In this document: piece by piece, positions 29,802 through 50,490 of the stretch
Layout: every line of letters begins with the position of its first letter
Position numbering within the stretch: the first letter of the stretch is position 1
NCBI GenBank assembly: GCA_904066235.2
Contig: CAJFCV020000003.1
Location: forward strand, 3,658,001 to 3,722,000
DNA length: 64,000 nt
From: Bursaphelenchus xylophilus
Taxonomy: Eukaryota; Nematoda; Chromadorea; Rhabditida; Aphelenchoididae
Direction of reading: 5' to 3'
Notes under the pieces: generated by a model
The model's database searches: none
What the model saw: the letters and a program-made list of their open reading frames with translations, nothing else
What the model was told of the DNA's origin: nothing
Position numbers and translations under genes: made by a program

Positions 29802-31284
29802 TTAACCAAAGAAACCGCCGAAGAAGAATCCAAATGGCGAGCAAGGGTTGCACGGAGGTTTAGTCTTCAGGGAGATGGTAAATGGGGTTTGAGGCTTCGT
29901 AGAGCTGGTAGATGGGGCGAGCGTGGTAAAATTCTTGCGTCTACGATTGAACTTGTCGTTCTTGTCGATGGCGGGAATCAGGAAGACGGGTTTCTTTTCC
30001 GAGTCCGTAGTCCACGCCATTTGATCGTCAATGTAGTAGTCGACTCTGTAAAACGACGATTTTTGCTTTTATTTCACGACTGTTGGAGTTGAATTCTAAA
30101 GTCTTACCCGGAGGCATGATCGTAGATGAAATAGGAGCAGCGGGGATTTAATTCTGGCTTGTCGCAATTTTGATTCGCATCGCAACAGAAGGCATAAATA
30201 GTGGCGTCTTTTGTGTGATAAATTGGGTTTCTTCTTTTGACCAAAATTGTTTTGTCGGCATCCAGATCATCGACACAGTATTGGTCATCTTTTTCGAGGT
30301 CCTGAAAAATGTAATTGGTAGTCGTGTAAGGTCCGAAAATTGATCACTTTCTGTTTAAATTACAAAAGTGCTTACCCAGCAAACCTTCTTCATATCTCCA
30401 ATATCTTTGCTGATTTCGTTGGGTGGAATGTCATCAAACCTTATGATTGGCGCATCTTGATCGCCGCAGTGAAGATTGTCAAGTCTGACCACGTCCTCAG
30501 GGCCGATACTCATGTACTTCCCCATTACGTACACATGAGGCCGGTATGTCATGTTCTCCCAGTTCAGCTTGTACGCACAAACTTCGCCGCTACAAATGGA
30601 GCCTGTCATCAATGCTAGGGCACGTCAATCCAAAATAGAAGAAAAAATTCCCGCCCCTTTTTGGTGATTCGTTCAAGAAATGTCATGAAAACGATACGAA
30701 GTTTCGAAACGGTTCAGGAAATGGGCTGGATTGACGTGTAGGGTGTTGCACTTACGTTGCCGTGTTGTATGTCTTCAGCTCTTTGGAGTCGGCAATCTCG
30801 TACAGAATGTCGCCAAACTTTTCATTAGACTCTTTTGAGGGGAAGAATACCAATGCGTTCGGCTGTGCTTCGATCTAAAAAGTACAAAAATCGTAATTGT
30901 GATCGGTAAATGTCGGCTGCATGTTGCCCTCAAAAGTCGCGACGCCCTGCTGTAGACTTACATAAGGATATTTCGTCTGTTTGGCAACTTCTTGGAAGCT
31001 CTCGTTCCTTCTGACTGGAATTACAAGTGCTCAGACAAAGCAAATATTATAAAACAATATTTTCTAGGCCCCAATTACAACTTACGCATTGCAATATGGT
31101 AGAAGCCGGTTCCATTTCCCGGAGCGATTGCTATGTACTTCTCAAAGTCGTCGGCATTTAGCGGGACATAGTTACGATTGGGATAGACCTTTTTGATGTT
31201 CTCCAAGACATTTTGGGATGAGCGATAACCACTGACAGAACACAGTGCAGCTACAAGAAGGCAGAGGAGCAGTTGACACCGCAT
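29802..31284 (-). CDS. Array family copy A: secreted Cys/Thr-tail protein, 340 aa
   Basis: I do not recognise the family; the function is unknown. Six exons keep phase: 31284-31086, 31014-30962, 30874-30756, 30589-30376, 30301-30108 and 30045-29802. A signal peptide (MRCQLLLCLLVAALCSVSGY) is followed by the family start SSQNVLENIKKVYPNRNY and DDFEKYIAI. Next come LVFFPSK and FGDILYEIAD, then CAYKLNWENMTYRPHVYVMG, GPEDVVRLDNLHC and KVCW. After these come YCVDDLDADKT, NPIYHT, FCCDAN and RCSYFIYDHASG. A Thr/Ser/Pro linker leads to a tail of paired Cys and Phe/Gly (PCNPCSPFGFFFGGFFG). It is the only copy on the minus strand and shares a 136 bp upstream region with copy B. It retains the intron after YDHASG, which copies E, G, H and I have lost. 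It is probably a secreted, O-glycosylated product. Confidence 0.9.
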
Positions 31285-31317
31285 GATTGCTTAATAGTGG
31301 AGGTCGGAAGTCTGGGG

Positions 31318-31323
31318 TTTATA
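31318..31323 (-). promoter_or_regulatory. TATA box of array copy A
   Basis: TATAAA on the minus strand lies 34-39 nt before the ATG at 31284, implying a very short leader. It faces away from the TATA box of copy B about 70 bp away. Confidence 0.6.
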
Positions 31324-31391
31324 TTTTGATTAAATTTGCTAAATTTGCATTATTTTCTAATCAACCGGTACATTTAATTAAGCTTCTGAAT

Positions 31392-31399
31392 TATAAATA
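31392..31399 (+). promoter_or_regulatory. TATA box of array copy B
   Basis: TATAAATA lies 29 nt before the first ATG (31421) of copy B and 38 nt before the second in-frame ATG at 31430. Together with the copy A box it forms a compact divergent promoter. Confidence 0.6.
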
Positions 31400-33424
31400 A
31401 CACAATGCATAGATTGTTTCATGTCATTTATGCGTTTGAAGATGTATACTGCGGCTATCTTCCTGTTGTTAGCGCGCTTTGGATTAGGCTCACTAACATC
31501 GGATGATCTGTTGCGGAACATAAAGAAACAGTATCCGAAAAGGAACTTTGAGAGGCTCGAGGCTGACAATTTTGAACGTTATATTGCTGTAGCTCGGGTC
31601 AAGGGCGAAGACTGGTCACGAATCGGAATTTGTATGCTTTTTTATGAGGAGCTACTGAATTATAATACTGTAATATATAAATGTTCGGTACGTAACGTAT
31701 CTTAAAATTGCTCTTCAGTCAATCGCCGCGACAGCTTGGCCGCAGTTTCGTATACCATCGATTGCCTAGCAAATGTAGGTGCAATTTGGTTTAGAAAGCT
31801 TTTTAGTATACATGGCCATTGATGTTTTTCCCGCAAAAAGCGGCAAACGAGAGATACGGCGATGTCCTCTATGAAGTCGCGCAATATGGAGCAGTAAAAA
31901 TTTGGCCATTAAAGGGGTAAAATATCTTCTTTATTGTTTAAAAGAGAGTTTTTTACAAATCTAAGGATGGCCCGGACATTTCGAAAAAACGACCGACTCA
32001 GAATCTTTTGATATTTTGCATAGTTGATGTACTATGATAGCTGAACGTCAGCACAAATTTTTAGGTTCGGAAATTACCGTATACGGGGGTTACGGTAGGT
32101 ACAATTTTTAGAAAGATTGGGTTCGTATGTAAAAACCTTAAGGAGTAAAGGCACAAAACCTCGCCGTTTTACGTTTTTGACCATGGGGAACATTTTCATA
32201 ATTGACAACTTTGCCGTAGGATGTTGCCTTCGACTACTTTGAAAAATACCAAGGTACCATATTGAATGTAACTTTTTTGCAGAGAACTTGTCTCAACTTT
32301 TGAAACCTCTCAAAAATACGTTGACATGTATGGAACAACATATCAAAAATTTAGAAAAATAAAAGGGGGGGGGTTTTGGAGTTACGGTACTTTGAATGTT
32401 GCCGGTACGGTATATCAAAAAATCATTTTTTTCGAAATGGGTGTAGAAGACCCGCAAACATTGCTAAAATACGTTTTCGACCATGGCAAACATTTTTGTA
32501 ATTGACAGTTTTGTTCTAGGATGCAGCCTTCGACCGGTTTGAGAAATGTCAAGATACCATGTTCAATATAACTTTCCGGCATTCAACTTGTCTCAACTTT
32601 TGAAACCTTTCAAAAACACCTTGACATATGTGCAACAACATATCAAAAATTTAGGAAAATAAAAGGGGGGGGGGGTTTTGGAGTTATAGCACTTTGAATG
32701 TTGGACATACAGTACACCTCGATTTATTCTCGGCTTAACTTTACGTAGATTATTTTAAAAACAAAATGTAATGTTTTATCTATGTTGTACGACCCTCACA
32801 AACTATTTTCACAAAAAAAATCAAAAAAACTAGACCTAAGCATACTGTAACATATCGTGCACAGATGACTGGTTACTGTAACAGCAAGATCAGTGATTTC
32901 TCAATTTTTTTGTAACAACTGACACGGTTTAGAGACGTGTGTGCCATACGACGGTGGAATCTATCAATATCGGATGTCAGCATCACAGAAAAAGTTTGGT
33001 GTACTGTATGTCCAACATTCAAAGTGCTATAACTCCAAAACCCCCCCCCTTTTATTTTCCTAAATTTTTGATATGTTGTTACACATATGTCAAGGCGTTT
33101 TTGAAAGGTTTCAAAAGTTGAGACAAGTTGAATGCCGGAAAGTTATACAGTGCGCGACAAAATTATAACCGCACTTTAGAAATTACTGTAACTTTGTTGG
33201 TTGCCAATAGAAATATGTCATATTTGGCACCAGTATGCACTAGTATGCTACAAATCATGTGCCAAAATATCATTTTGGTAAATTTTCCCAATTTGGAAAA
33301 AAGTTGAAAAAACCAAAATTTTGGTGATTTTCTTTGCGACAAAATTATAACCGCACTTACGGATTTGGCTAATTGCCCTAATTAAACCACTGAATTACAA
33401 GAACTAATGTTTAGCTACGTTTCC

Positions 33425-33535
33425 TGAGGTTTCAATAACGTCATTTAAATAGCCGGGAATACTCTGGGCTAGCGTTTTAACCTCTTGTGGCTAATATTGT
33501 GCCAGAATCGGAAAACGAGGGATTTCGGCTCAGGT
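33425..33535 (-). pseudogene. Second, inverted copy of the transposase 3' end
   Basis: On the minus strand the DNA reads VFRFWHNISHKRLKR, a stop, then QSIPGYLNDVIETSGNVAKH, which corresponds to the C-terminus of the plus-strand transposase. It therefore extends the inverted repeats of the Tc1-like element into coding sequence, as if two head-to-head copies had collapsed. Confidence 0.75.
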
Positions 33536-33894
33536 ACGCCGTTCGGGCAGAGTTTACCAGTAGCTAACTGACTAACGCAGAAGCCTATGACACATCTAAA
33601 CGTTCTGGTAGAAAAGGTGTGCCGCTGCAGCAGAGCAAAGGCAGGTATATCCGCCGAGCTTCCAACTCCACCATCCTTTGGTCTCATATAAAATAAGAAA
33701 TAGGCCTCAACTGTAGCAGGAAAGCTATGCTAAGGGTTGTAAGACACAGTGATGTCATCAGGGCGTCACATGAAGTTGTGATCCCAGCTGGCCCGGGTTC
33801 ACTGCAGTGCGCGGCCGAGATTTGCCAAGGTGACCTTGACAGAATTGTTTGATTAGTCAAAGGTCAGAATCACGCCGTTACAGAAACGAATTCC

Positions 33895-34425
33895 TTGGAG
33901 ATTCTACAGCCAACCGATACCCCTGACGGTTTCACACATTACACATATAACTGGCATAAAATCAGAAGAGAACAGCGCTACCTCTCGCACCTTAATGCTG
34001 GAGGTGGTTCGTTGATGACTTGGGGTGACTTCGAAGAAACCGGAGTGCTTCCGTTGGCATCCGCATCAATTCAAATGAATAGACAGGAGTATCAGGAGGT
34101 CTTTGGCAAGCATCTGGTGCCGTATTGGGAACCAGGCTACACGTTAATGCAGGACAATGACCGCATCCACCTTAGCTGGTCGACAAAGCAGTTCCTTGAA
34201 AAGCAAAGAATTGCTACCCTGGACTTGGCTGCATGCTCCTTTGACTTAAATCTGATGGATAACGTGTGGGGCATTCTGGTTCGTGAATTACACTGCAAGA
34301 ACAGGCAGTATTTTACCGTAGCCGAGCTCAAAGAGGCTCTTTTCCAATTCTGGCGCAATATTAGCCAGAAGAGGTTAAAAAAGCTTGCCCAGAGTATTCC
34401 CAGCTATTTAATCGACGTTATTTAA
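33895..34425 (+). pseudogene. Tc1-like DDE transposase, C-terminal part
   Basis: The frame contains GGGSLMTWGDF, EYQEVFGKHLVPYW, MQDNDRIH (with the second catalytic Asp), FLEKQ, ATLDLAACSFDLNLMDNVWG (the site of the third acidic residue, here Asp where family members usually have Glu) and FQFWRNISQKRLKKL. The N-terminal DNA-binding domains and the first catalytic Asp are absent or unreadable upstream, and several conserved positions have changed (ACSFDLN for ACSPDLN). It is most likely inactive. Confidence 0.85.
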
Positions 34426-36601
34426 GCCTAAGGCAACGTAACTAAACATTAGTTATTGTTATTCAGTGATTTAGTTAGGCTAATTGACCAAATTCGTAAG
34501 TGCGGTTATAATTTTGTCGCAAAGAAAACAATCAAAATTTTTGTTTTTTCAATTTTTTCCAAATTTGGGAAATTTCCCGAAATAATTTTTTAGCACATGG
34601 TTCGTAAGACACTAGTGCATATTGAAGCCAAATATGACACATTTCTATTGACAACCAAAAAAGTTACAGCAATTTCTAAAGTGCGGTTATAATTTTGTCG
34701 CGCACTGTATTGAACATGGTATCTTGACATTTCTCAAACCGGTCGAAGGCTGCATCCTAGAACAAAACTGTCAATTAGAAAAATGTTTGCCATGGTCGAA
34801 AACGTATTTTAGCAATGTTTGCGGGTCTTCTACACCCATTTCGAAAAAAATGATTTTTTGATATACCGTACCTGCAACATTCAAAGTACCGTAACTCCAA
34901 CCCCCCCCCTTTTATTTTTCTAAATTTTTGATATGTTGTTCCGTACATGTCAACGTATTTTTCTGAGTTTTCAAAAGTTGAGACAAGTAGAATGCCGAAA
35001 AGTTACATTACACATGGTATCTGGGTCATTTTCGAAGTAGGCGAAGACTACATCCTACAAAAAAAGTGTCAATTACAAAAATGTTCGCCATGGTCGAAAA
35101 CGTGTTTTGGCAATTTTTGCGGGTCTTCTACACCGATTTTGAAAAAAATAATTTTTTGATATACCGTACCGGCAACATTCAAAGTACCGTAACTCCAAAA
35201 CCCCCCCCTTTTATTTTTCTAAATTTTTGATATGTTGTTCCATACATGTCAACGTATTTTTGAGAGGTTTCAAAAGTTGAGACAAGTTCTCTGCAAAAAA
35301 GTTACATTCAATATGGTACCTTGGTATTTTTCAAAGTAGTCGAAGGCAACATCCTACGGCAAAGTTGTCAATTATGAAAATGTTCCCCATGGTCAAAAAC
35401 GTATAACGGCGAGGTTTTGTGCCTTTACTCCTTAAGGTTTTTACATACGAACCCAATCTTTCTAAAAATTGTACCTACCGTAACGGCCGTATACGGTAAT
35501 TTCCGAAACTAAAAATTCGTGTTGACGTTCAGCTATCATAGTACATCAACTATGCAAAATATCAAAAGATTCTGAGTCGGTCGTTTTTTCGAAATGTCCG
35601 GCCCTTGTTATGAGAAGCTTCAATTTGTAAAAAACTCTCTTTTAAACACCACGTTGTCGATTGCAAAAGATTTGTAAATGTTTTAGCGGCAAGATGTGCG
35701 TCTACGATATCCCCAATTACAAAGCGGACTATCGAGCGCACATGTACATTACTGGGCATTACTTGAGCGTCAGTCCGACCGAGGCGGTGAAGCTTACGGA
35801 CTTGCAATGCCCACCTCAAGGTGGACGGATGGGAATGTTGCCGGTGGTTCAGTTTAGCAGCATCCCAACGTCGGAGATTGCCAGTGAAATCAGCGACATG
35901 CAGAAGGTTTGCTGGGTATGTTCATAAACAGAAATTTGCGCTAAAAATAATGCACTTTTGGCAATTTTACCGCTCTGTTAGTATCACCCATACATGCCGC
36001 CGTTTGTTTTCAGGACCTCAATAACGATGACAAGTATTGCGTTGACGATCTGGACCATGAGAAAACCATCGTCGTTTATCGCAAGAACCCGATTTCCATG
36101 CGCAAAATGCAACCGTTTACTTGTATTGCTGCGGGTGGAATAACGATTGTGACGCGGCTGGCACTCGCTGTTCGTCCTTTATCTATGATCATGTCTCTGG
36201 GTAAGAACTCTTTCAATCTGACACGTCATTCTAGAGTTGACTACTACATCGACGATCAAAGCGCTTGGAATGCGGACAGCTATAAAGACCCGACGTTTTT
36301 GGTCCCGGCCATTGATAAAAACGACAAATTCAACAGGATTCGCGAGCAGTACAGCACCGTGCCCCCAACTACAACTCCAACCACAACAACTCCGACCACA
36401 GCAACGACTACTACCACTACTACTACTACCACCACCACCACCACCACTAAACCAACAACTCCGCTTACCACAAAAGGAACAGATAAAACGACTTCCCCTC
36501 CGGTTACCAGCACAACTGCCGCAAATGAAACGAAGAACCCATGTTGTCCCTGTCCGTCATGCCAAAACTTTGCATTATTTTTTGGCGGCTTCTTTGGCTA
36601 G

Positions 36602-37170
36602 CAACAAGCTGATGTGGAATTGAAAAAAACATGATTTATCACTGATTATGCTTGCTCCTTTTTGTCTCTGAGTAAACGCCACAAAATTGGATTATTAAAT
36701 ATTATTGACGCAAAAAAAATTCAAAGGTTTCCTTCGGATACGGCAAAAACTGGCAATTTTATCACGCTTTCCAACCGCATCTGAGATATTCAACGATTTT
36801 TTGAGTTCAAAGGGGTGTTGCGGCGCGTAATCAATCGCAACCCCGTGCGGCAGGATAAAGTGAGATTCGCGCTTCGATTTCCACCAGTTAGCTTGTATAT
36901 TGTAGGCTTCACATACAGATGCGTGTTCTCCTGAATAAAGTATTGAATGCACCCACCTCTGGATTCTACATAAATACAAGGTTTGAAGCGACTGAGAGCT
37001 CAGGGTCCTAGGGTTATGGTTTCATACGGTATATGTATCCTATAATAATCTCTCTCGCAGCTACGTGTATACTGTAGCTTACGCATGTAGATCACCGCCT
37101 ACGTTTGTATTAATCGAAATGATCCTGACAATCTTAATATGCAATTCCAGCACATTCATCCACAAATTTG
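36602..37170. repeat. 3' flank of copy B, duplicated downstream of copy D
   Basis: Blocks such as TTTTTGTCTCTGAGTAAAC, GATTTCCACCAGTT, TTGTAGGCTTCACATA, ATAATCTCTCTCGCAGCTAC and GCAATTCCAGCACATTCATC recur in the same order at 39850-40430 after copy D. This shows that a segment containing gene plus flank was duplicated, with later deletions. No gene is seen inside it. Confidence 0.75.
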
Positions 37171-37189
37171 ACAAAGCAATTAAAACGGC

Positions 37190-37405
37190 AGTTTACGACT
37201 GGATTCGCGCACAGCACGGCACTGTGTCCCCAACTACAACCAGTTCTTCAACGTTATCTCTAACTGCGTCTCCAAGAACGCCAGCGTCAACAGCTCTGAG
37301 TTTTCTGCCGAGAGCTACAGCGGTTACTAAACCCCAATTCCATTAGCTGCCTGAAATTGCTGCGGACCGTTTGCATTTTTATTTGGAGCCTGCTTTGGCG
37401 GATAA
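37190..37405 (+). pseudogene. Array family remnant C: 3' exon only
   Basis: A Thr/Ser-rich frame (VSPTTTSSSTLSLTASPRTP) is followed, after a frame change, by NCCGPFAFLFGACFGG and a stop at 37403-37405, which is the family's tail. The upstream exons are missing; the sequence before it matches the region just upstream of copy E. It is a relic of a deleted family member. Confidence 0.7.
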
Positions 37406-37705
37406 ACTATGTAAATCAAACTCCATTTTGATTAATCTAATTAAATTTGCATTATTTTCAAATTAGAATCGTTGTATATTGAAGGCCTAATTGCAAACGT
37501 ATAAGGTTTCACACACAATTTTTGCATATAAACCAAATTTTCAATCGAACAGATTCTGATCGTATGACCCTGCATCATCCTGTGGCTACATGAATGTAAT
37601 ATAACCATTTACATTCATGTTTAAAGCGTTTTTTTTTTGAAAAAACTCACAAGAGCAATTAGCCTCCTTAATGTTACAAATTAATTTGTCGATTGGAAAA
37701 ATATG

Positions 37706-37717
37706 TATATATAAATA
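37706..37717 (+). promoter_or_regulatory. TATA box of array copy D
   Basis: TATATATAAATA lies about 50 nt before the ATG at 37763. A TTACAG sequence at 37741-37746 could be a splice acceptor, but the TATA box suggests a directly initiated short leader. Confidence 0.5.
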
Positions 37718-37762
37718 ACAACTGTCAGTTTCCCAATCTATTACAGTCGCTTCTGAAAAATA

Positions 37763-39798
37763 ATGGCGCTGCTCTTAATCTTGCTTTCTTGTATTGTTTC
37801 CGTGGCCCAGGGATATAGGGGTTCGGATAGTGTCATCGAGAACCTGAAGCGTGCCCACCCCGAGCGTAGATACGAGGAGATTCAAGCTGGCGACTTTTCG
37901 ACTTATCTTGTGATCAAACAGGTACCGAATGACCCACACAAAATGCATATATTAAGAGGTAGGCGTGCGCTTAGTTTGTAAATGTTTCAGTACATAAATC
38001 TCAAAGCTTTGACGCCATGTCGACACCTCTGGACATCTATCACCCGCCCGTAAGTACCACCCGCGTGCCTGCCGAAAACTAACTTCAGGGAGGACAGGCG
38101 TTGATGTTTTATCCGATGATGAGAGAGATGAAATATTCGGACTACATTTTTGAGATTGCCGCGGAAAAGCGTCTAAAGTTATATGTAATTTCGACGTAAG
38201 TCAGTTTAGGTGTCATCTGCAAGAGGAGGGGTTTCCGTAGGGAAACCCCTCCTCTTGCAGAATTACAACCGCACTTTAGAAAATGATTCTTACTTTTGTG
38301 GGTGCCAATATAAGATGTGTGATATTGAGAAATGATGTGCCAAGGGTTTTGTTTTAAAGTTTTCCGTGTTTTGGAAGACAGATGCAGAAAAACCAAATTT
38401 TCGTACTTTTCTTTGTCTAGCCTAGTCAAAACACAGAATAGCAATAACTAATGTTTATTCACGTTTCCTGAGGCTTCAATCAAACGGCCGGGAACCCTCC
38501 GGGCAAGCTTTTCAAACGTAACCTGGCCTGTCTTGTCCCTGAATTGGAAAACGGCAGATTTCCGCTCAGGTAGACCGTTGGGCCCAAGTTGTGAGGAACT
38601 TTCTGGTCGACTCGGAAGTTTGGTTTTTTCAACTTTTTCCAAATTGTGCAAATTTCTTGAAATACATTTTCGGCACATCATTTCGACTACATACACTGAT
38701 GCGTTTACCGCCAAATATAACACATTTCTATTGAAAACCATGAAAGTTACAATGACTCACACAGCTTGGGTATAACAAGGTTACAAATTTGTTATTCGTC
38801 TATGTATATATATATATAATTTTTGCACTGTGCACACTTTCAAATATCTTTACATTTTGGCTATATATTTCCCTAGTTGAACCTTTGCCTTTGCAGTGGA
38901 CAAATCTGTACATGGGCTTATATCCCAGGTTGGAAAAATGACCGTAACAGAGCGCACTCCTTCATAATGGGCGACTACGTGAGCCTGGGCTTTGATACGT
39001 TCGTCCGGATCTCGGATCTTATTAACCATTGTGATGCAAGTGTTCCGCCTTTGCCCGTTGTTAATTTCGCCCGAATACCGGAAGAAGGCCGCGTCCGCCT
39101 ACCCGGCGTATCCGACATACAAAATCAGTGCTGGGTAAGTTACCTCGTGCTCAGAAAATTTTGTAGAAAAACTCAAACACGTCACTCTATTGCACGAACC
39201 AGGTCGACAGCGGAGAAATCGGTAAATTGACCTTAGTGCCAAGGGAAAGACCTGTGTATAAAATGGGTGATCTGACTGTATACGCATTTTGTTGCGAAGC
39301 CTACGACTGTTATGATGCAGGAGATCACCGCTGTGTATACGTCGTTTACGATTCCTTGACCGGGTAATTGTGCGATCTTAAGCTCTGACTTTGTTTAGAA
39401 TTGACTTTGTTATCAGAGACGGGATTGAATGGACCACAGACACCACACGAAATCCAGTATTTCTTATGCCACTTATTGTCGGGAACGATCCTTTCATAGA
39501 ACGGAGAAAGTCGTTTACAACAACAACAACGACAACTACCACTACTACTACCACGACTACGACCACAACAACGACAACTACCACTACTACTACCACTGCT
39601 ACCACTATTACTACCACCACCACCAGACCAACTACTCTTACCACTAAACCAACAACTCCGCTTACCACAAAAGGAACAGACAAAACGGCTTCTCCTACGG
39701 TTACCAACGCAACTGCCGACAATGAAACGAAGAGCCCATGTTGCCCCTGTCCGTCATGCCAAAACTTTGCATTAATTTTTGGCGGTTTCTTTGGCTAA
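37763..39798 (+). CDS. Array family copy D: divergent secreted member with long poly-Thr linker, 386 aa
   Basis: Six exons keep phase: 37763-37958, 37991-38049, 38089-38195, 38897-39134, 39203-39363 and 39399-39798. A signal peptide (MALLLILLSCIVSVAQGY) is followed by SDSVIENLKRAHPERRYEEI and DFSTYLVI. Exon 4 keeps CTWAYIPGWKNDRNRAHSFI and QCW; exon 5 keeps LTVYAFCCEA, RCVYVVYD but lacks the YCVDDLD block found in the other copies. Exon 6 holds an almost uninterrupted run of about 38 Thr from ACN triplets and then a tail (CCPCPSC, FALIFGGFFG) nearly identical at DNA level to that of copy B. The body is the most diverged of the array. Intron 3 contains a perfect hairpin and a Tc1-like relic. 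Function unknown; a heavily O-glycosylated secreted protein is likely. Confidence 0.85.
38217..38260. repeat. Perfect 20 bp hairpin with 4 nt loop
   Basis: CTGCAAGAGGAGGGGTTTCC, then GTAG, then the exact reverse complement of the first 20 bases. It lies in intron 3 of copy D, directly against a Tc1-like relic. A transposon terminus or rearrangement footprint is likely; a small-RNA hairpin cannot be excluded but the stem is short. Confidence 0.85.
38261..38777. mobile_element. Degenerate Tc1-like relic in intron 3 of copy D
   Basis: ACAACCGCACTTTAGAAA, TGGGTGCCAATA, ATGTTTATTCACGTTTCCTGAGG and GCTCAGGTA-ACCGTT match the left part of the Tc1-like element at 33148 in order. The minus strand again codes for a decayed transposase end (LARRVPGRLIEASGNVNKH). 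The right portion matches the right terminal repeat (CAAATATAACACATTTCTATTG). The centre is deleted. Confidence 0.75.
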
Positions 39799-40483
39799 CA
39801 ATAAGCTGATGTGGAATTAAAAAAAACATGATTTATCTTTAATTGTGTTTGTTCCTTTTTGTCTCTGAGTAAACCCCAGAAAATGCATGGATTATTAATT
39901 TGCGCCTCGATTTCCACCAGTTGCCTCGTATTGTAGGCTTCACATATGTTTTGTCCTGACTGGTGGTGGTGAAGATACGAGGTCAGCCAGATGTAGAAAG
40001 ATAATAAATATAAATTTATTATCAGATAAAAGCAACAATACGTAGCGTAACGCCAAATATTTACTGAATGAAAATAACAACTGAAACCCTATTTCTCTTC
40101 CAAGCTTCGAGAAGCTTCGAAATAAACGGAATGCCAATACAGTAATCGTAGTTCCTGCTTCGGGACACAACAACATACAGACGCGTGTTCTTCTGAATAA
40201 AGTTTTCAATGCACCAAACCGCTGGATTCTACAGTACCTGCCCAAAACAGAGGAAAGCATAAAAAGGGAGAAGGTTTCATACGGTCTATGTATCCAATAA
40301 TAATCTCTCTCGCAGCTACGTGTAAACGGTAGGTTATGTGGATAACCGCCTACGTTTGTGTTAATTGAAATGATCCTGTCGATCACAAGATGCAATTCCA
40401 GCACATTCATCCACAAATTTAATTACTGACGAAGCAATTAAAACGGCCATGTTTGCATACTAACAACACCGAAATCAAATTTG
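39799..40483. repeat. 3' flank of copy D, homologous to the flank of copy B
   Basis: This spacer has the same ordered blocks as 36602-37170. It also contains about 190 bp (39960-40150) that the copy B flank lacks, including GAAGCTTCGAGAAGCTTCGA. No gene is supported; the 158-codon minus-strand frame here has no domain. Confidence 0.65.
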
Positions 40484-40490
40484 TATATAA
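40484..40490 (+). promoter_or_regulatory. TATA box of array copy E
   Basis: TATATAA begins 44 nt before the ATG at 40528, matching the short TATA-to-ATG distance of the other copies. Confidence 0.55.
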
Positions 40491-40527
40491 TCGTGGTATC
40501 AGTTAGTTGAATCACATTTTCGAAAGA

Positions 40528-41741
40528 ATGAGACTCCTCCGTCTAATCTGTTCAATCTCCCTGTTGTACTGTACATTGGCCGACCGGAAATCGAGCAGTG
40601 TGCTGGAAAATATCAAGAAGAGGTATCCGAACAGAGTGTTCAATGTTTTGACACCCGGCGATTTCCACGAATACATTGCGGTGGGGAAAATCGACGGTGA
40701 TCCGAACTACACAATCGCCAGATGTAAGGCTGACTAATCGCTTCTTATAGGTGTTTCAGTGAATGTCAACGAAAGCTACAATGCGAAAAAGAAGGATGTC
40801 GGAGTCCCGAATGTAAGTGGAGCATAAACAACGCTTTACATTGCGGGGAAGTTCTATAAAATCAATTTTGTAGAACATGCCCTACCCGTTGGTCTACTTC
40901 CCCGCCAAAGCTGGGGACGCGGAATACGGCAACATTCTCTATGAAGTCGCGAATAGCAAAAAGATCAAGATCTTCAATTCGGCGACGTAAGTGGCCTTGA
41001 ACATGTGCTTATATACGATTGCAGCGGCCGAGTTTGTGGTTGGGACATCCCCACCTGGCCAGACATCAGAAATAGACCCCATGTCTATCTGATGGGAAAG
41101 AACTACTTGAGTTTGGGACCAGAGGATGCGGTCAGATTGGACACGCTGAACTGTAGTCACTCGGGACAGAGCCTCCCGGTCGTCAAGGTTAGGGACATCC
41201 CTGATTCAGAGCTTTCGAAAAAAATCAAAGACATGGTTCCTAAATGCTGGGTAGGTCATGAACAAGCCTGCGCCGTAAATTCTTTGCAAATCTTGTAGCC
41301 TTCAAATCCTCAAATTTTTAGAGCAACCGCACCGACGATGTTTACTGTGTGAACGACATCGACATCGATCAAACCATTCAAGTCCCCCGCGCCAACCCCA
41401 TTTACCACACCGACAACCTGACTGTGTACGGGTTCTGCTGCGATGCCAACAACAAGTGCGATGGCGATGGTGGAGACAGATGCTCGTATTTCATCTACGA
41501 TCACTATAATGGCGCTGATTGGTACATTGACGACGATTCGGACTGGACAACCGACTCCGTGAAGAAGCCCTACTTTTTGATTCCGTACATTTACAAGAAC
41601 GACAAGTTCCAGAACGTCACCAGAAGACATGCGAGCACACCGACTCCAACTGTGGTCACAACGCCCGCCCCAGGTTGCGGATATTGTTGCAACTTCTTCT
41701 TTTTCTTCGCTGGCTTCTTTGGTGGAAATTCCGGAAATTAA
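40528..41741 (+). CDS. Array family copy E: secreted protein, 335 aa
   Basis: Five exons keep phase: 40528-40723, 40760-40812, 40874-40986, 41025-41250 and 41322-41741. The in-frame ATG at 40528 is chosen because it gives a signal peptide (MRLLRLICSISLLYCTLA) and a conserved distance to the TATA box. The mature protein starts SSSVLENIKKRYPNRVFN. It continues with YPLVYFPAKAGDAEYGNILYEVAN, CGWDIPTWPDIRNRPHVYLM, GPEDAVRLDTLNC, LPVVKV and KCW, then YCVNDIDID, NPIYHTDNLTVYGFCCDAN and RCSYFIYDHYNGADWYIDD. The linker is short (TPTPTVVTTPAPGC) and the tail is CNFFFFFAGFFGG. The intron after YDH seen in A, B and D is absent. AATAAA at 41747 follows the stop closely. It is sister to the G/H/I group. 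Function unknown. Confidence 0.92.
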
Positions 41742-42228
41742 CTGAGAATAAAATTTAATAAATTGTTTATTTTAATGAGGAATGTTTGCAGCGCGAAAAA
41801 CTAATCAATGTTTTGTTAGTGCAAAATTTTAGGCCAAGCAGAACTTCAACTGCTTATAACTTTTTTTTTTCAACTTTCAACTTTATTGCGCTAGACAAAT
41901 TGCCTGTGCGCCATGATCGTCCGGTTCGGTGGGGAATCGGTTAGGATTGGTTAGACACAGTACTGGCACGAAATTTAAATGTTTTTTGTCCTATATTGGT
42001 TTTACAGAAAGGTGTTTCAAACCTCTGTCGCCTCAGGCGATAGCGGTCCTGTTTTATAACGAATACGCTTATTCGTAATTTGTGATTGGATGCACAGATC
42101 TCCACTACGTTACAGGAGATCATTTTGGGCAAGCTTTAAATATTCAGAGATAAGCCCATTGCGGATTATCATGGACAACTGATGCGTTCAAAAAACCAAT
42201 CTTCATGGCTCTGGCGCTAAGAGATCTG

Positions 42229-42330
42229 GCTTCAACGCCGGCTCCACCTGTCATCGATCCGACCGCAACATCGGCGCCAGGCTTTGGTCCCGCCTGTAAC
42301 TGTTTTTATGTTGCTTTTGCAATTCCCCGT
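42229..42330 (+). pseudogene. Array family remnant F: linker and tail only
   Basis: The frame reads STPAPPVIDPTATSAPGFGP then ACNCFYVAFA, matching the Pro/Ser linker and Cys/aromatic tail of the G/H/I group. The rest of the gene is missing and the frame runs on without a stop at the expected place. It is a 3' relic between copies E and G. Confidence 0.65.
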
Positions 42331-42514
42331 TGCGTCCACCACAATGAAATTTCTGTAAGCCTGAATTTGCAAAGCAAGCTGTGCAGGGCTACGTACCCTA
42401 AACAATTATTCATTCTCATGACATTCATTAAAAATTCAGTTTGCTAACATCTTCGAAAGCTGGAATTACTTGACAATTTGGATTGTATAATGTAAATGCT
42501 GACTTGAAATTTGC

Positions 42515-42522
42515 AATAAAAG
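42515..42522 (+). promoter_or_regulatory. TATA-like AATAAAAG of copies G, H and I
   Basis: AATAAAAG lies 42 nt before the ATG of copy G. It recurs at exactly the same distance before copies H (44912-44919) and I (47594-47601), within a conserved block (CAATAAAAGCAAATGTAT). A core-promoter role is inferred from position. Confidence 0.5.
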
Positions 42523-42556
42523 CAAATGTATCGTTAATTAAATTATATCGACAAAG

Positions 42557-43965
42557 ATGAGGACCCTACCGGTAATCGTGTCTTTTTCGTTTCTGTTCTA
42601 CTGTACTCTTGGATATCGTCCATCTAGCAATGTGTTGGAGAATATCAAGAAGGTTCATCCGGATAGAATCTACAACAAGTTGAGACCCGATGATTTTGAT
42701 AATTTTATTGTCATGTCGGAAGTTCCTGGAAGGACATACTTTAAAATCGGGGCCTGTAAGCTCAGATTTACATTGAATTGATTTGACGGTATCTATGAGT
42801 GTCCTAAACTTGTCTAATTTCAGTAAGCCGTAACGAGAGTTTTGCATCGATTTCAAAGGAGACTCAGGTTTCATCCGTAAGTCTGAGGATAGAAAAACGA
42901 GAGATATCAATTGTTTGTTTTGCAGTCGCCCTACCCATTGGTATTCTTCCCATCCAAAGCGGGTGACGGAGTCTACGGCGACATCCTTTACGAAGTAGCC
43001 GACACCAAGCAAATCAAAGTCTTCTCTCTAAAAAAGTAAGTATGTATGTTTCTTACTGTATTATGTATTCACCAGTATATGATTCTAATGTCTTCAGCGG
43101 CTCACACTGCGCGTATGCCATTCCGGGCTGGTCGGATATCAGAAACCGGCCTCACGTATATGTGATGGGAAACTACTTGAGTCTTGGACCCGAGGATGCC
43201 GTTCGATTGGACACTCTCGTCTGTGGTCAACGCTCGTTGCCAGTTGTCAAAGTGGCGGACCTCACCGATGCAGAGCTTCCAAAAGCCGTAAGGGACATGG
43301 TGCCGGCTTGCTGGAAGGATGTAAGTGTAAAGAAGAGTGCTATCGAAGCGTGACGCTTTGAAATTGAGAAACACTGGCGATTTTTGCCAAGTTTAATCTA
43401 TGCATATTTAAATCTTCAACTTTTCTGCCCTCTGTGAAGCCTCTCAACTTTCCAGAGTCAAAATAAAAGTCAAGAGAAATACTGTGTGGACGATCTTGAC
43501 AACGACAACACATTTGTGGTTCCCCGCGCCAACCCGATTTACCATACCAACAATTTGACTGTGTATGGCTTCTGCTGCGACAGCAACTTCCAATGCGAAG
43601 GCGACGGCGGAGATCGATGCTCTTACTTCATCTACGATCACATTTCGAACGCCGACTTCTATATTGACGATGAATCGCCATGGACTACGGACGAGTACCG
43701 TAAGCCGATGTTCTTGATTCCGGCGATCGCCAAGACGGACCTGTTCCACAGTCACACCAGAGTAAACGCTTCGACTCCGGCTCCGCCAAGCACCACTCCG
43801 GCTCCACCAAGCTCCACTCCGGCTCCACCAAGCACCACTCCGGCTCCACCAAGCACCAGTCCGGCTCCACCAAGCACCAGTCCAGTTCCGGGTCCAGCTC
43901 CACGGCCTGGCCCATGCAGGTTCTGCAATTTGTCCTTCTTCTTCGGATTTTTCGGCGGAAAGTAA
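42557..43965 (+). CDS. Array family copy G: secreted protein with five APPS units, 364 aa
   Basis: Exons 42557-42755, 42824-42876, 42926-43035, 43098-43320 and 43456-43965 join in phase. The signal peptide is MRTLPVIVSFSFLFYCTLGY. The mature body has SSNVLENIKKVHPDRIYNKL and DDFDNFIVM. Next are YPLVFFPSKAGDGVYGDILY, CAYAIPGWSDIRNRPHVYVM, GPEDAVRLDTLVC, LPVVKVADL and ACWKD, then YCVDDLDNDNT, NPIYHTNNLTVYGFCCDSN and RCSYFIYDH. The linker is a 21 bp minisatellite coding for TPAPPS-type heptads with five APPS units. The tail is CRFCNLSFFFGFFGGK. Copies H and I are near-identical. The poly(A) signal AATAAA lies at 43988. Function unknown; abundance and short-leader promoter suggest a strongly expressed secreted product. 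Confidence 0.93.
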
Positions 43966-44040
43966 CTTTTGTTGCTTACCAGATAATAATAAATACATGT
44001 TGCAAAGTAACTTTCGTTCATATACGTATTGTAACCGCCT

Positions 44041-44480
44041 AAAATTGTATACTGCAAACTATTTTCATGGTATAATTAACCTAGTGGCCAGTCCTAAACC
44101 TATATCTGTCCATTTTTCGGCAAGTTTGCACAAAAAAATAAGAAATAAAACTAATATTAACCATGGTACAACAAACATCACAACATTCCAAAATTTGGTG
44201 CTTTATCCGAGCAGAAAACGGGAAATCTAGACATCAAATCGAACGGGGCAGCCTGCTCTTGGTTCCCTTTTTGGACAAATTCTATCTGGTCTTCATTCAG
44301 AAAATATATCTTGAACATTGGCGAAAAACAAAAAAAAATCTTGCAGAAAATCCTGGGTCAACCGTTCCCCCGAAACCCTGCACCGAATTCCGAAACTCGG
44401 TGCCGACTTAGGGCTTCGGTGCAGACTTAAGACTTTGAGCACCGATTTCGAAAAACGGGCGTTGGGTTAAACTCTTATGT
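44041..44480. repeat. Intergenic repeat between G and H, repeated between H and I
   Basis: The segment beginning CTAAA-TTGTAT-CTGCAAAC and running through CCTAGTGGCCAGTCCTAAAC, GAGCAGAAAACGGGAAATCTAG and CGAAACCCTG-CCGAATTCCG recurs at 46859-47290. It marks the spacer of the tandem duplication unit. Confidence 0.85.
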
Positions 44481-44953
44481 GACCACCTTTATGTACAGTA
44501 ACCGCTCACGGCAACCCAGGGAGTCTCCCTCGTCGTTTCGGCACTTCGCACACCCAATATCGTTCAAATTCACACGAAATGTCACAACAGAATTTTTCGT
44601 GCTGTTTTTCGATGGAAAAATATTTTTCTTGAAATTATTTTATTGCTTTTGTCAGTTGTGACACTTCGTTTGGACGAAACTCAAAAGTGGGCGGGAGACA
44701 TTTTTGTTCTGTTTCGGTTTGCCGTGCGGCTGTACATTAAACTTTTGTAGACCGAAATTTGCAAAGCAAGCTGTGCAGGGCTACGTACCCTAAGCAATTA
44801 CTCATTCTCATGACATTCATTAACAATTCAATTTGCTAACATCTTCGGAAGCTGAGATTATTTGACAATTACAGCCCTCATTTGGACTGTATAATAAACC
44901 TGAAAATCTTCAATAAAAGCAAATGTATTGTCAATTAAATTATTTTGACAAAG

Positions 44954-46335
44954 ATGAGGACCCTACCGGTAATCGTGTCTTTTTCGTTTCTGTTCTACTG
45001 TACTCTTGGATATCGTCCATCAAGCAGTGTGTTGGAGAATATCAAGAAAGTTCATCCGGATAGAATCTACAACAAGTTGAGACCCGATGATTTTGATAAT
45101 TTTATTGTCATGTCGGAAGTTCCTGGAAGCGCATTCTATAAAATCGGTGCCTGTAAGCTTAGATTTACGCTTAACTGGTTTGACGGTATGTTGCCACTTG
45201 TTTAATTTCAGTAAGCCGTAACGAGAGCTTTGCATCGATTTCAAAAGAGACTCAGATTCCATCCGTAGGTCTGAGGATTGAAAAACAAGAGATTTCAATG
45301 ATTTGTTTAGGGCACGCCCCACCCATTGGTATTCTTCCCGTCCAAAGCGGGTGACGGAGTCTACGGCGACATCCTTTACGAAGTAACCGCCGACAAGTTG
45401 ATCAAACCCTTCTTTCTAAATAAGTAAGCATATGTATTCTTACTGTATTCTGTATTCATCAACGAGTATATGATTATAATGTTTTCAGCGGCTCACACTG
45501 CGCGTATGCCATTCCGGGCTGGTCGGATATCAGCAACCGGCCTCACGTGTATGTGATGGGAAACTACTTGAGTCTTGGACCCGAGGATGCCGTTAGATTA
45601 GACACTCTCATCTGTGGTCAAGGCTCGTTGCCAGTTGTCAAAGTGGCGGACCTCACCGATGCAGAGCTTCCAAGAGCCGTAAGGGACATGGTGCCGGCTT
45701 GCTGGAAGGATGTAAGTGTAAAGAAGAGTGCTATAGAAGCGTGACGCTTTGAAATCGAGAAACGCTGGCGATTTTTGCCAAACTTAATCTATAAATACTT
45801 AAATCTTCAACTTTTCTGCCCTCTGTGAAGCCTCTCAACTTTCCAGAGCCAAAATAAAAGTCAAGAGAAATACTGTGTGGACGATCTTGACAACGACAAC
45901 ACATTTGTGGTCCCCCGCGCCAACCCGATTTACCATACCAACAATTTGACTGTGTATGGCTTCTGCTGTGACAGCAACTTCCAATGCGAAGGCGACGGCG
46001 GAGATCGATGCTCTTACTTCATCTACGATCACATTTCGAACGCCGACTTCTACATTGACGACGAATCGCCATGGACTACGGACGAGTACCGTAAGCCAAT
46101 GTTCTTGATTCCGGCGATCGCCAAGACGGACCTGTTCCATAGTCACACCAGAGTAAACGCTTCGACTCCGGCTCCGCCAAGCACCACTCCGGCTCCACCA
46201 AGCTCCACTCCGGCTCCACCAAGCTCCACTCCGGCTCCACCAAGCACCAGTCCAGTTCCGGGTCCAGCTCCACGGTCTGGTCCATGCGGGTTCTGCAATT
46301 TGTCCTTCTTCTTCGGATTTGTTGGCGGAAAGTAA
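44954..46335 (+). CDS. Array family copy H: secreted protein with four APPS units, 358 aa
   Basis: Exons 44954-45152, 45212-45264, 45311-45423, 45489-45711 and 45847-46335 match copy G in number, phase and nearly in sequence. The ATG at 44954 is chosen over an upstream in-frame TTG because it aligns with G and I. Differences from G cluster in exon 3, where the start reads GTPHPLVFFPS and the end YEVTADKLIKPFFLN, while exons 1, 4 and 5 are almost unchanged. The last exon is 21 nt shorter than in G, exactly one heptad of the linker. The tail reads CGFCNLSFFFGFVGGK. A hAT-like MITE sits 70 bp past the stop (46406-46847), beyond the AATAAA at 46362. Function unknown, as for the family. Confidence 0.93.
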
Positions 46336-46405
46336 TTTTTGTTGCTTACCAGATATATAATAATAAATGCATGTTGCAAAGTAAATTTCGTTCATATATT
46401 GTAAC

Positions 46406-46847
46406 CAGAGATTGCCACGGCTCCGGAGCTGGCTCTTGGCTCCGGCTCTGAGCGGCTCCGGCTCCGAGCCGGGAGCCAGAGCTGGAGCCGGAAATTTTGG
46501 GGTCGGCTCCGGTTCCCGAGCCCAAAGTCGGAGCCAGGCTTCCCAGCGGTCAGAAAAGAAAAAATTTCGTGAGCTTGTTAAACCAAATTGCTTGAAAAAC
46601 ACTGCGGAGGATCTGACTTGACTGCAAAAACGTTGGCTGTATGATCTCTGGCACTAATAACGTTTATTTTCGGAAAAATATTCTTAAAAAAACGTTTTGC
46701 ATAGGAGCGGGGATTCGGAGCCGGAGGCCTTTTTAAATTTTTCACGGATCCAAGAGCCGGAGCCGGAGCTGCATATGTGGCCTCGGCTCCGGCTCTGGGA
46801 GCTAAGAGCCGGAGCCGGAGCCGAAATTTTGACCGTGGCAATCTCTG
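46406..46847. mobile_element. hAT-like MITE downstream of copy H
   Basis: The ends are CAGAGATTGCCACGG and CCGTGGCAATCTCTG, flanked by an exact 8 bp duplication, ATTGTAAC (46398-46405 and 46848-46855). The corresponding place after copy G (ATTGTAACCGCC at about 44029) has a single ATTGTAAC and no insert, so it preserves the empty site. Sub-terminal parts are built from GGCTCCGGCTC and CCGGAGCCGG repeats; the middle is AT-rich and non-coding. Confidence 0.93.
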
Positions 46848-46858
46848 ATTGTAACCGA

Positions 46859-47290
46859 CTAAACTTGTATGCTGCAAACTATTTTCATGGTATAATTAAC
46901 CTAGTGGCCAGTCCTAAACCTATATCTGTCCATTTTTCGGCGAGTTTGCACAAAAAAAATAAGAAATAAAACTAACATTAACCATGGTACAACAAATATA
47001 ACAAAATTCTAAAATTTGGTGCTTTATCCGAGCAGAAAACGGGAAATCTAGATATCAAATCAAACGGGGCAGCCTGCTCTTGGTCCCCTTTTTGGACGAA
47101 TTCTATCTTGTCTTCATTCAGAAAATATATCTTGAACACTGACAAAAAACAAAAAAAAATCAGGAAATCCTGGGTCAACTGTTCCCCCGAAACCCTGCCC
47201 CGAATTCCGAAATTCGGTGCCGACTTAGGGCTTCGGTACAGACTTAAGACTTTGAGCACCGATGTTGATAAACGGGCGTTGGGTTTAGAA
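46859..47290. repeat. Second copy of the G-H spacer repeat
   Basis: This spacer repeats 44041-44480 with about 95 percent similarity by eye. Downstream of it the spacer continues with sequence (47290-47480) that differs from the G-H spacer. Confidence 0.8.
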
Positions 47291-47635
47291 AAAATGCACA
47301 GGATTTCATAATCGGGTGCCGAGACAAAATTAAATTGACGCCAATTTTTTGATTTGGGCGTCGACTTTTTTATGCACCGAAAATCGCGGTTTGGAAAAAA
47401 AAATTTAAACGCTTATGTTATACCTTTATATGTAAATATGTATAGTAACCGCTGTACATTAAACTTTTGTAGACCGAAATTCTCACGACATTCATTAACA
47501 ATTTAATTTGCTAACATCTTCGGAAGCTGATATTATTTGACAATTACTGCCCTCATTTGGACTGTATAATGCAAATGATGACTTGAAATTTGCAATAAAA
47601 GCAAATGTATCGTTAATTAAATTATTTTGACAAAG

Positions 47636-49011
47636 ATGAGGACCCTACCGGTAATCGTGTCTTTTTCGTTGCTGTTCTACTGTACTCTTGGATATCGTCC
47701 ATCTAGCAATGTGTTGGAGAACATCAAGAAAGTTCATCCGGATAGAATCTACAACAAGTTGAGACCCGATGATTTTGATAATTTTATTGTCATGTCGAAA
47801 CTTCCTGGAGGCACATTCTATAAAATCGGGGCCTGTAGGTTTATATCTACATTGAACTGGTTTGACGGTATCTATGACTGCCCTAATCTTGTTTAATTTC
47901 AGTAAGCCGTAACGAGAGTTTTGCATCGATTTCAAAGGAGACTCTGATTCCATCCGTAAGTCTGAAGGATTAAAAGACGAGAGATATAATATCAATGATT
48001 TGTTTAGTACTTGCCGTACCCATTAGTATTCTTCCCGTCCAAAGCTGGTGACGGAGTCTACGGCGACATCCTTTACGAAGTGGCCGACACCAAGTATATC
48101 AAACTCTTCTCTCTAAAAAAGTGAGTATATTTATTCTTATTGTATTCTGTATTCAATAACGAGTATATGATTCGAATTTCTTCAGCGGCTCAAACTGCGC
48201 GTATGACATTCCGGGCTGGTCGGATATCAGCAACCGGCCTCACGTGTATGTGATGGGAAACTATATGAGTCTTGGACCCGAGGATGCCGTTAGATTAGAC
48301 ACTCTCATCTGTGGTCAAGGCTCGTTGCCAGTTGTCAAAGTGGCGGACCTCACCGATGCAGAGCTTCCAAGAGCCGTAAGGGACATGGTGCCGGCTTGCT
48401 GGAAGGATGTAAGTGTAAAGAAGAGTGCTATAGAAGCGTGACGCTTTGAAATCGAGAAACGCTGGCGATTTTTGCCAAACTTAATCTATAAATACTTAAA
48501 TCTTCAACTTTTCTGCCCTCTGTGAAGCCTCTCAACTTTCCAGAGCCAAAATAAAACTCAAGAGAAATACTGTGTGGACGATCTTGACAACGACAACACA
48601 TTTGTGGTCCCCCGCGCCAACCCGATTTACCATACCGACAATTTGACTGTGTATGGCTTCTGCTGTGATAGCAATTTCCAATGCGAAGGCGACGGCGGAG
48701 ATCGATGCTCTTACTTCATCTACGATCACATTTCGAACGCCGACTTCTACATTGACGACGAATCGCCATGGACTACGGACGAGTACCGTAAGCCGATGTT
48801 CTTGATTCCGGCGATCGCCAAGACGGACCTGTTCCATAGTCACACCAGAGTAAACGCTTCGACTCCGGCTCCGCCAAGCACCACTCCGGCTCCACCAAGC
48901 TCCACTCCGGCTCCACCAAGCACCAGTCCAGTTCCGGGTCCAGCTCCACGGCCTGGCCCATGCGGGTTCTGCAATTTGTCCTTCTTCTTCGGATTTGTTG
49001 GCGGAAAGTAA
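47636..49011 (+). CDS. Array family copy I: secreted protein with three APPS units, 351 aa
   Basis: Exons 47636-47834, 47903-47955, 48008-48120, 48186-48408 and 48544-49011 are in phase and match G and H. The signal peptide differs from G by one residue (SFSLLFYCTLGY). Exon 3 starts YLPYPLVFFPSKAGDG and the body keeps CAYDIPGWSDISNRPHVYVM, GPEDAVRLDTLIC and ACWKD. It also keeps YCVDDLDNDNT, FCCDSN and RCSYFIYDH. The last exon is a further 21 nt shorter than in H, giving three APPS units. AATAAA lies at 49034. Homology to the spacer after G ends near 49085, marking the right edge of the duplicated block. This is the last member of the array in the window. Function unknown. Confidence 0.93.
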
Positions 49012-50404
49012 TTTTTGTTGCTTACCAGATAATAATAAACCCATGTTGCAAAATAATTTTCATTCGTATACTGTAACCGCCTAAAGTAGTTTACTCTAAA
49101 TTAGCGTCTGTTTTAAGAAAAACTGTTGTTGTATATACGGCCTCCGCCGGTACAAGAGGCTCCGCCGAGCCTTCGCCAATGTGTGAAACGTCCGTCAAGC
49201 TACTGAGGCTAACACTTACATCTTGTCAGAAGCGACAACCCTAATTTTATCTGTAGTAAAGATGTCTGGGCTTTATAACGGGATGTAATTTGCAAAAGAG
49301 GCGTCAAATGTCTCCGCCGAAAAATGGCCTATCCGCCATGGCGAGAAAAAATTCTTCTGCATATCCTAAAAACTCATAACTTCAAATTTTAAAAACAGTT
49401 TAAGCTTTTTGGAAATCTCCAACTAGCGCAAAGATATTGACAAAGAATTTTTTTGATATTTGTTGATGCAGCCTGCATTTTTCGTACGATTGCAAAATTT
49501 ACAAGCGTCATGGTCTGCGGCACTGCCTCATAGATTTAGAACGTAGGAATCTAATATGCAAAGCTGCACTCTCCCCACCCCTATATTCTGATGACATTCT
49601 GTGATACTTGAGGAAATCCCCCAAGTTTCGAAAAGATTACAGATTGCGTCAACGCAGGTCTGTTTTCAATATTAATAGTAGCCGACGACATTGCAAATCC
49701 CTGAAATCTGCGTCATTTCCCTTTTATCTTCCAAACCCTGAGGGCATTTGGCTGCCAGAAAAACGTGGAATGTTCTACACGAACGTCCTTTCACAGGCTA
49801 ATTACACCCATAAAAGGGGAGGATTTCACATTCCAAAATAGGCATTCGACCATGCTGTACTCATGGTGTAATAGTACGAAAAAGAAAGTTTTTTGAAACA
49901 TTGATGCTAATTATTAATGATGGATATCCATTTCCGAATTAAAAAGATGAGAAAGACTAATTTAGTAATCATCCAAATTGGACAGAGAACAGGAAACAGG
50001 CATTTGGCAGTTTTTGCAAAGAATTGGAGGAGTTATTTGCGCCGAGGATACTGTATTTTTTGAGAGAAAAGGGAAGAAAACGGCAAAAAATGTATAATTT
50101 TAGCGGGGAAAGTTATTTTACGGCAGGTTAAGAGAATATTTTTTTTCTCAAATTTGTAAAAATTATGCATGCATAATATTTACTCATTTTTGTGTAATTT
50201 TTGCTATAAAATATGCGATTTTTTATTTAAAAAAAATTTACTCAAAAAAAATTTTGAAAGCTAAATTGGAAATTTTTTATTTTTTTTTTTTAATTCCAAT
50301 TTTTTGTGACAAAAAATCAAATCAAACTTCCATTTTTGTCTTGTAAACCGTCCTTTCCGTTTCCCCCCTTGAATCGCTCTCTCTTCTCTCGCTGTTTGAC
50401 CCGT
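49012..50404. other. Intergenic right of the array
   Basis: At 49138-49215 lies the second copy of the CCTCCGCCGGT/CTCCGCCGAGCCTTCGCCAATG repeat also seen at 11700-11800. The rest is AT-rich with homopolymer runs; no gene is supported. Confidence 0.5.
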
Positions 50405-50486
50405 GCAGCTTTGTCCGAGTGGTTAAGGAGTTGGACTTGAAATCCAATGGGCTTTGCCCGCGCAGGTTCGAACCCTGCAGGCTGCG
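50405..50486 (+). tRNA. tRNA-Ser(UGA)
   Basis: The 82 nt sequence folds as a type II tRNA. Its seven-pair acceptor stem is GCAGCTT with AGGCTGC (one G-U pair), followed by discriminator G as in tRNA-Ser. The anticodon arm is TTGGA-CTTGAAA-TCCAA, which places TGA at the anticodon. A long variable arm (GGGC-TTT-GCCC) and a perfect T arm (GCAGG-TTCGAAC-CCTGC) follow. No intron is present. The TCCGAGTGG run fits box A and GGTTCGAAC box B. A T6 run at 50491-50496 is the Pol III terminator. CCA is not encoded, as expected for a nuclear gene. Confidence 0.97.
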
Positions 50487-50490
50487 AGTT

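Follow-up and report, generated by a model that had tools for sequence, protein, structure and literature searches.

Between positions 29,802 and 49,011 of a 64,000-nucleotide window of the Bursaphelenchus xylophilus (pinewood nematode) genome (C3:3,658,001-3,722,000) lies an array of related genes with secreted-looking products. The array contains six intact genes (A, C, E, F, G and H), one frame-broken copy (B) and two relics, and gene rebuilding, splicing and three-frame translation showed that the count and limits given in the initial annotation were right. The other five intact array proteins are 40-50% identical to A, far beyond chance, and the spliced products of A, E and H are letter-identical to the deposited B. 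xylophilus proteins P0002, P0003 and P0001, respectively.

Copy A is located on the minus strand, head to head with copy B, and its six exons (31284-31086, 31014-30962, 30874-30756, 30589-30376, 30301-30108 and 30045-29802; whole gene 29802..31284) are joined in phases 1,0,2,0,2 and encode 340 amino acids. The divergent intergenic stretch between A and B (31285..31429) contains one octamer, ATTTGCAT, at 31343-31350. All other copies are on the plus strand. Translation in separate frames recovered all six exon blocks of B (31430-31631, 31719-31774, 31807-31916, 35687-35915, 36014-36200 and 36235-36601; whole 31430..36601), with the frame changing inside exon 5, either genuinely or by assembly error. 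Only linker and tail remains were seen by three-frame translation in the relic at about 37180..37410, and only WTTD, linker and tail remains in the one at about 42150..42330. Between the two relics are copy C (386 amino acids; six exons at 37763-37958, 37991-38049, 38089-38195, 38897-39134, 39203-39363 and 39399-39798; whole 37763..39798), which has a long Thr run in its linker, and copy E (335 amino acids; five exons at 40528-40723, 40760-40812, 40874-40986, 41025-41250 and 41322-41741; whole 40528..41741). The array ends with a trio of five-exon genes: F (364 amino acids; 42557-42755, 42824-42876, 42926-43035, 43098-43320 and 43456-43965; whole 42557..43965), with the longest linker of the three, G (358 amino acids; 44954-45152, 45212-45264, 45311-45423, 45489-45711 and 45847-46335; whole 44954..46335), with the most changed exon 3, and H (351 amino acids; 47636-47834, 47903-47955, 48008-48120, 48186-48408 and 48544-49011; whole 47636..49011). 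The Pro/Ser/Thr linker of the trio is encoded by 21-bp tandem units, located at 43753..43910 in F and fewer in number in G (46144-46280) and H (48841-48956).

All nine loci had been proposed to share a common order of sequence blocks and the same exon phases. The common order holds for seven loci but not for the two relics with their C-terminal remains, and among the seven, the YCVDD block is missing from copy C, and NWENMTYRPHVYVMG takes the place of the PGW form in copy A. Similarly, phases 1,0,2,0 are common to the copies (A, C, E, F and H, with G judged by exon lengths and B by block lengths), whereas an additional phase-2 intron near the end is present in A and C, has a block boundary at the same place in B, and is lacking in E, F, G and H.

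Further family members lie outside the array. Searching the 78.25-Mb, 8-contig assembly with E, K (C-terminal end cut) and J1 returned at least 35, 28 and 33 exon-by-exon matches, respectively, all of them at the array, at C3:1,183-1,188 kb (gene K) and at C5:812.9-818.8 kb (genes J1 and J2, an exon-1 fragment and a tail fragment). In total, all exon blocks are present in ten genes, of which B is the only one not intact. J1 and J2 have intron phases 1,0,2,0,2, and K is without the first intron. K is letter-identical to P0005; J1 and P0014 are equally long and align with 100% identity and coverage. Three protein searches gave 4, 5 and 1 proteins, seven of them distinct (P0001-P0006 and P0014); copy C was not returned by any of the three, while F and G may be among the members of the P0001 cluster of 7 sequences. 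All seven are from B. xylophilus except P0004, a 185-amino-acid protein of B. okinawaensis that shares 53% identity with A where the two overlap and whose place in the tree is poorly supported (0.02-0.73). At the sensitivity of these searches, which need shared short words (in one of them, scoring was limited to the 7995 candidates with the most words in common), the family appears to be restricted to Bursaphelenchus, in agreement with the lineage-expanded family suggested earlier. Given that the title of PMC4199697 calls B. okinawaensis fungal feeding, a role confined to pine parasitism is unlikely.

A hydrophobic start, a head, a stalk and a tail follow each other in all nine intact members, with the starts judged by hydropathy only. 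An alignment of eight members (A2), in which the seven other rows are 30-61% identical to E, contains 25 invariant columns, including those of five cysteines (195, 235, 236, 242 and 250 of P0003). In F, G and H, exon 5 holds five of the eight head cysteines together with stalk and tail. Ser, Thr and Pro make up 0.43-0.73 of the stalk in eight of the nine intact B. xylophilus members and 0.24 in K, so that a mucin-like Ser/Thr/Pro-rich stretch lies behind the hydrophobic start in those eight. Stalk length varies, with the number of 21-bp units falling from F to G to H and with the long Thr run of C. Every member seen ends in a tail of at least one Cys and then Phe/Gly, and K has an extended version of it. 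Hydropathy, composition and the protein searches thus bear out the earlier description of nematode, secreted-looking proteins with a Thr/Pro/Ser-rich linker.

With the two tail patterns used, the Phe/Gly tail was not found as a module common to other proteins among the matches inspected. An FGGFFG-plus-end pattern matched five times against two matches for its reversed control, at A, B and C and once each on contigs C4 and C6; no such tail was seen in the listed open reading frames (ORFs) at the C4 match, and the C6 match ends in a sense codon. A longer pattern with one mismatch allowed gave 6 matches against 2 in the control, at A, B and E, once on C2 and two more times (C1, C4). The C2 match lies on the strand opposite a gene that resembles DnaJ.

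That the family could not be assigned to any named one, as first noted, was upheld by profile and sequence searches. Pfam scans of four and then eight members gave matches below curated cut-offs only (best E 0.028, taken as chance), NCBIfam gave a single match at E 0.27 for eight members, and the best match to PDB sequences, a hyaluronidase at E 0.15 over about 40 residues, was dismissed as chance. Viral contigs searched with A2 yielded 11 pattern stretches, none of them confirmed. In the titles and abstract openings among the matches listed, with PMC3689755 and PMC6465311 reached by term only, the family was not described; supplements and most subscription papers lay outside this scope, and absence from print is not claimed.

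The genes seem to have been maintained under selection that differs along their length. Over the head, the ratio of nonsynonymous to synonymous substitution rates (dN/dS, omega) was 0.31 for F/G, 0.26 for F/H and 0.50 for G/H, and over exon 5 it was 0.12, 0.12 and 0.21, respectively. Values of 0.45-0.72 were obtained for exon 1 of the trio and of 0.39-0.88 for exon 4, and exon 3 gave 1.13 and 0.89 when G was one of the pair, against 0.22 for F/H. For J1/J2 (L009 2387-6902), omega was 0.79 over the head and 1.06 in exon 4 (22 nonsynonymous and 5 synonymous differences). The two genes differ strongly in exon 4 and are identical in exon 6, the coding last exon, which suggests recent exchange between them, as if by gene conversion of the 3' end. 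Synonymous sites of older copy pairs are saturated or nearly so. We read these values as those of functional genes that are constrained in their C-terminal part and freer in the middle, a reading that stops short of positive selection. The fast evolution claimed for the family therefore applies to exon 3 of G and exon 4 of J1/J2, but not to the constrained exon 5 of F, G and H.

The octamer ATGCAAAT/ATTTGCAT occurs at -66 to -87 upstream of A and B, which share one site, and of H, J1, J2 and K, i.e. within 200 bp of the ATG in six of the ten genes and four of the six lineages, a lineage count that this octamer reached in none of 2000 shuffled sets. Four octamers are present in 28,001-50,000: the A/B site (31343), the H site (47569), one at 37,445, about 320 bp upstream of C, and one at 29,778, just 3' of A. 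In C. elegans, the octamer is bound by CEH-6 and can direct expression in the excretory cell, and one gene requires a -135 to -105 region containing its octamer (PMC2841177). In Trichinella spiralis, genes for secreted proteins are enriched for an upstream POU-like motif but not for known C. elegans motifs (PMC11731790). The octamer is the sole hint on cell type and, having been found post hoc, is no more than a lead.

Mobile elements appear to have entered the array. Intron 3 of B is filled by an inserted element (31969-35604) whose inverted arms of 408 bp (31,969-32,376 and 35,197-35,604) are 98% complementary, and nested in it is a mariner-like element (33,145-34,710) with an ORF that matches DDE_3 weakly (E 1.6e-5; 25.2 bits, below the cut-off of 28.6). 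An insert at 46405-46850, present after G and absent after F, has complementary ends AGAGATTGCCACGG / CCGTGGCAATCTCT and repeated flanks TTGTAACC, and looks like a small palindromic transposon. A Pfam scan of six of the 17 flanking ORFs of at least 130 amino acids plus the transposon ORF matched a symporter twice, an arrestin-like protein, an EF-hand and DDE, leaving two ORFs unmatched; no functional link between the array and these neighbours was seen. The sodium:dicarboxylate symporter family ORFs (2635-3045 and 15861-16535) and the arrestin C-terminal domain ORF (22495-22941) are on the minus strand. At 62477-63779, the EF-hand ORF adjoins one without a Pfam match, which resembles the end of a PPEF-type phosphatase. 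A tRNA-Ser (TGA) at 50404-50487 was called by ARAGORN and matched the Rfam tRNA model.

With a secreted head, a mucin-like stalk and an end that is both hydrophobic and cysteine-bearing, the layout suggests that the proteins are displayed on a surface or within a secretion that holds together. Our tentatively favored reading, which we hold at somewhat under even chances, is that the family represents surface-coat or secretion proteins with a binding head, a stalk and a fixing tail, made in a secretory cell. Behind a signal-peptide-like start, these Bursaphelenchus-restricted extracellular proteins would carry a cysteine-rich, predicted all-beta head of about 270 residues as the binding part, and variation of its middle (exons 3-4) between some copies may alter the bound target. 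Two models built from different query sequences, with alignment rows largely in common, agree on secondary structure. The Thr/Pro/Ser stalk, variable in length and likely O-glycosylated, would hold the head off a surface or matrix, to which the tail could fix the protein by self-association or cross-linking. The site would be the worm surface coat or secretions, facing fungus, tree or microbes.

Several points weigh against this. The putative surface, host or microbe role is drawn from the layout, and few changes underlie the omega values near 1. The tail has about 10 hydrophobic residues, and its best 10-residue Kyte-Doolittle mean (1.5-2.1 outside K) is below that of the protein starts (2.2-3.4), so the proteins may be soluble and tail anchoring is unproven. 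Viewed as a candidate anchor signal of GPI-anchored surface proteins, the tail is short and weakly hydrophobic by hydropathy. The octamer is absent within 200 bp upstream of C, E, F and G, and two of the four octamers in 28,001-50,000 lie outside proximal promoters. Over all 8-mers, some 8-mer was present in at least four of six lineages in 184 of 2000 shuffled sets, a test that took H, the sole octamer carrier of F/G/H, and likewise J1 as representatives of their groups. Excretory-cell expression was obtained from 25 of 64 assayable octamer promoters in C. elegans, and vit-2 octamers less than 448 bp from the ATG failed to drive it (PMC2841177).

The proteins could instead be pharyngeal-gland effectors delivered through the stylet and soluble in the tree, for which we see about one chance in four. 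Tandem, lineage-restricted, secreted-looking families are typical of pioneer effectors, an established pattern, and among the ten family genes J1 and J2 on C5 alone bear, at -47, an exact copy of STATAWAARS, the B. xylophilus pharyngeal-gland promoter motif (PMC6062891). As a promoter element of the window copies this motif was rejected, with no exact copy within 400 bp upstream of any of the seven window genes (the stretch for B was placed with an offset of 2 bases); moreover, J1/J2 make up a single one of the six lineages, a share that does not clearly exceed the 597 of 17,735 genes given in PMC6062891, a stalk and tail would be odd for a soluble injected protein, and the relative in fungal-feeding B. 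okinawaensis also speaks against it. Somewhat less probable are structural matrix proteins of cuticle, egg shell or reproductive secretion, with cysteines and Phe/Gly tail driving assembly and the head serving as a building block rather than a receptor. The tail in every member and the strong constraint on exon 5 of F/G/H fit such proteins, but the head middle changes most in G and J1/J2 where a building block is expected to be conserved, and no Pfam matrix domain was found in eight members.

A further explanation concerns the fold and is compatible with any of these: the head may be a secreted beta-propeller (an olfactomedin-like binding domain or a five-bladed hydrolase) diverged beyond sequence recognition, which we consider improbable. 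No internal blade repeats were detected, and no Pfam model of an olfactomedin or beta-propeller family was matched by any of the eight A2 members, the four families found at E up to 1 all being others. Returning to the coat or secretion reading, its fullest version is equally improbable: a head without relatives outside Bursaphelenchus and with a possibly new or heavily modified beta fold, a length-variable mucin stalk, a self-associating Phe/Gly tail and excretory-cell expression via the POU octamer, together forming a diversifying, genus-particular coat. We conclude that the orphan family is real and, at the sensitivity of the searches, restricted to the genus; it is familiar in kind but unusual in layout, and a new fold is possible but unproven.

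Nematode-specific interactions are usually sought in lineage-restricted secreted families, but it is rare for such a family to combine a clear layout with a sound gene count and a lead on its promoters. Should these be coat or secretion proteins, they would offer a defined target for studying the pinewood nematode's encounters with fungi, bacteria and tree tissue; a head with a new fold would extend the fold catalogue. Among known systems, the pioneer effector families of B. xylophilus (PMC6062891) are likewise secreted-looking, lineage-restricted and without a known domain, whereas the array family differs from them by its head-stalk-tail layout and by the exact gland motif being found in 0/7 window genes. 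Olfactomedin (OLF) domains, as in myocilin, gliomedin and latrophilin, are among the closest known comparisons. Mucin-like nematode surface-coat glycoproteins share the Ser/Thr/Pro-rich stalk after a secretion signal, while the array family is distinguished from them by a dominant, large cysteine-rich head and a Phe/Gly-rich tail.
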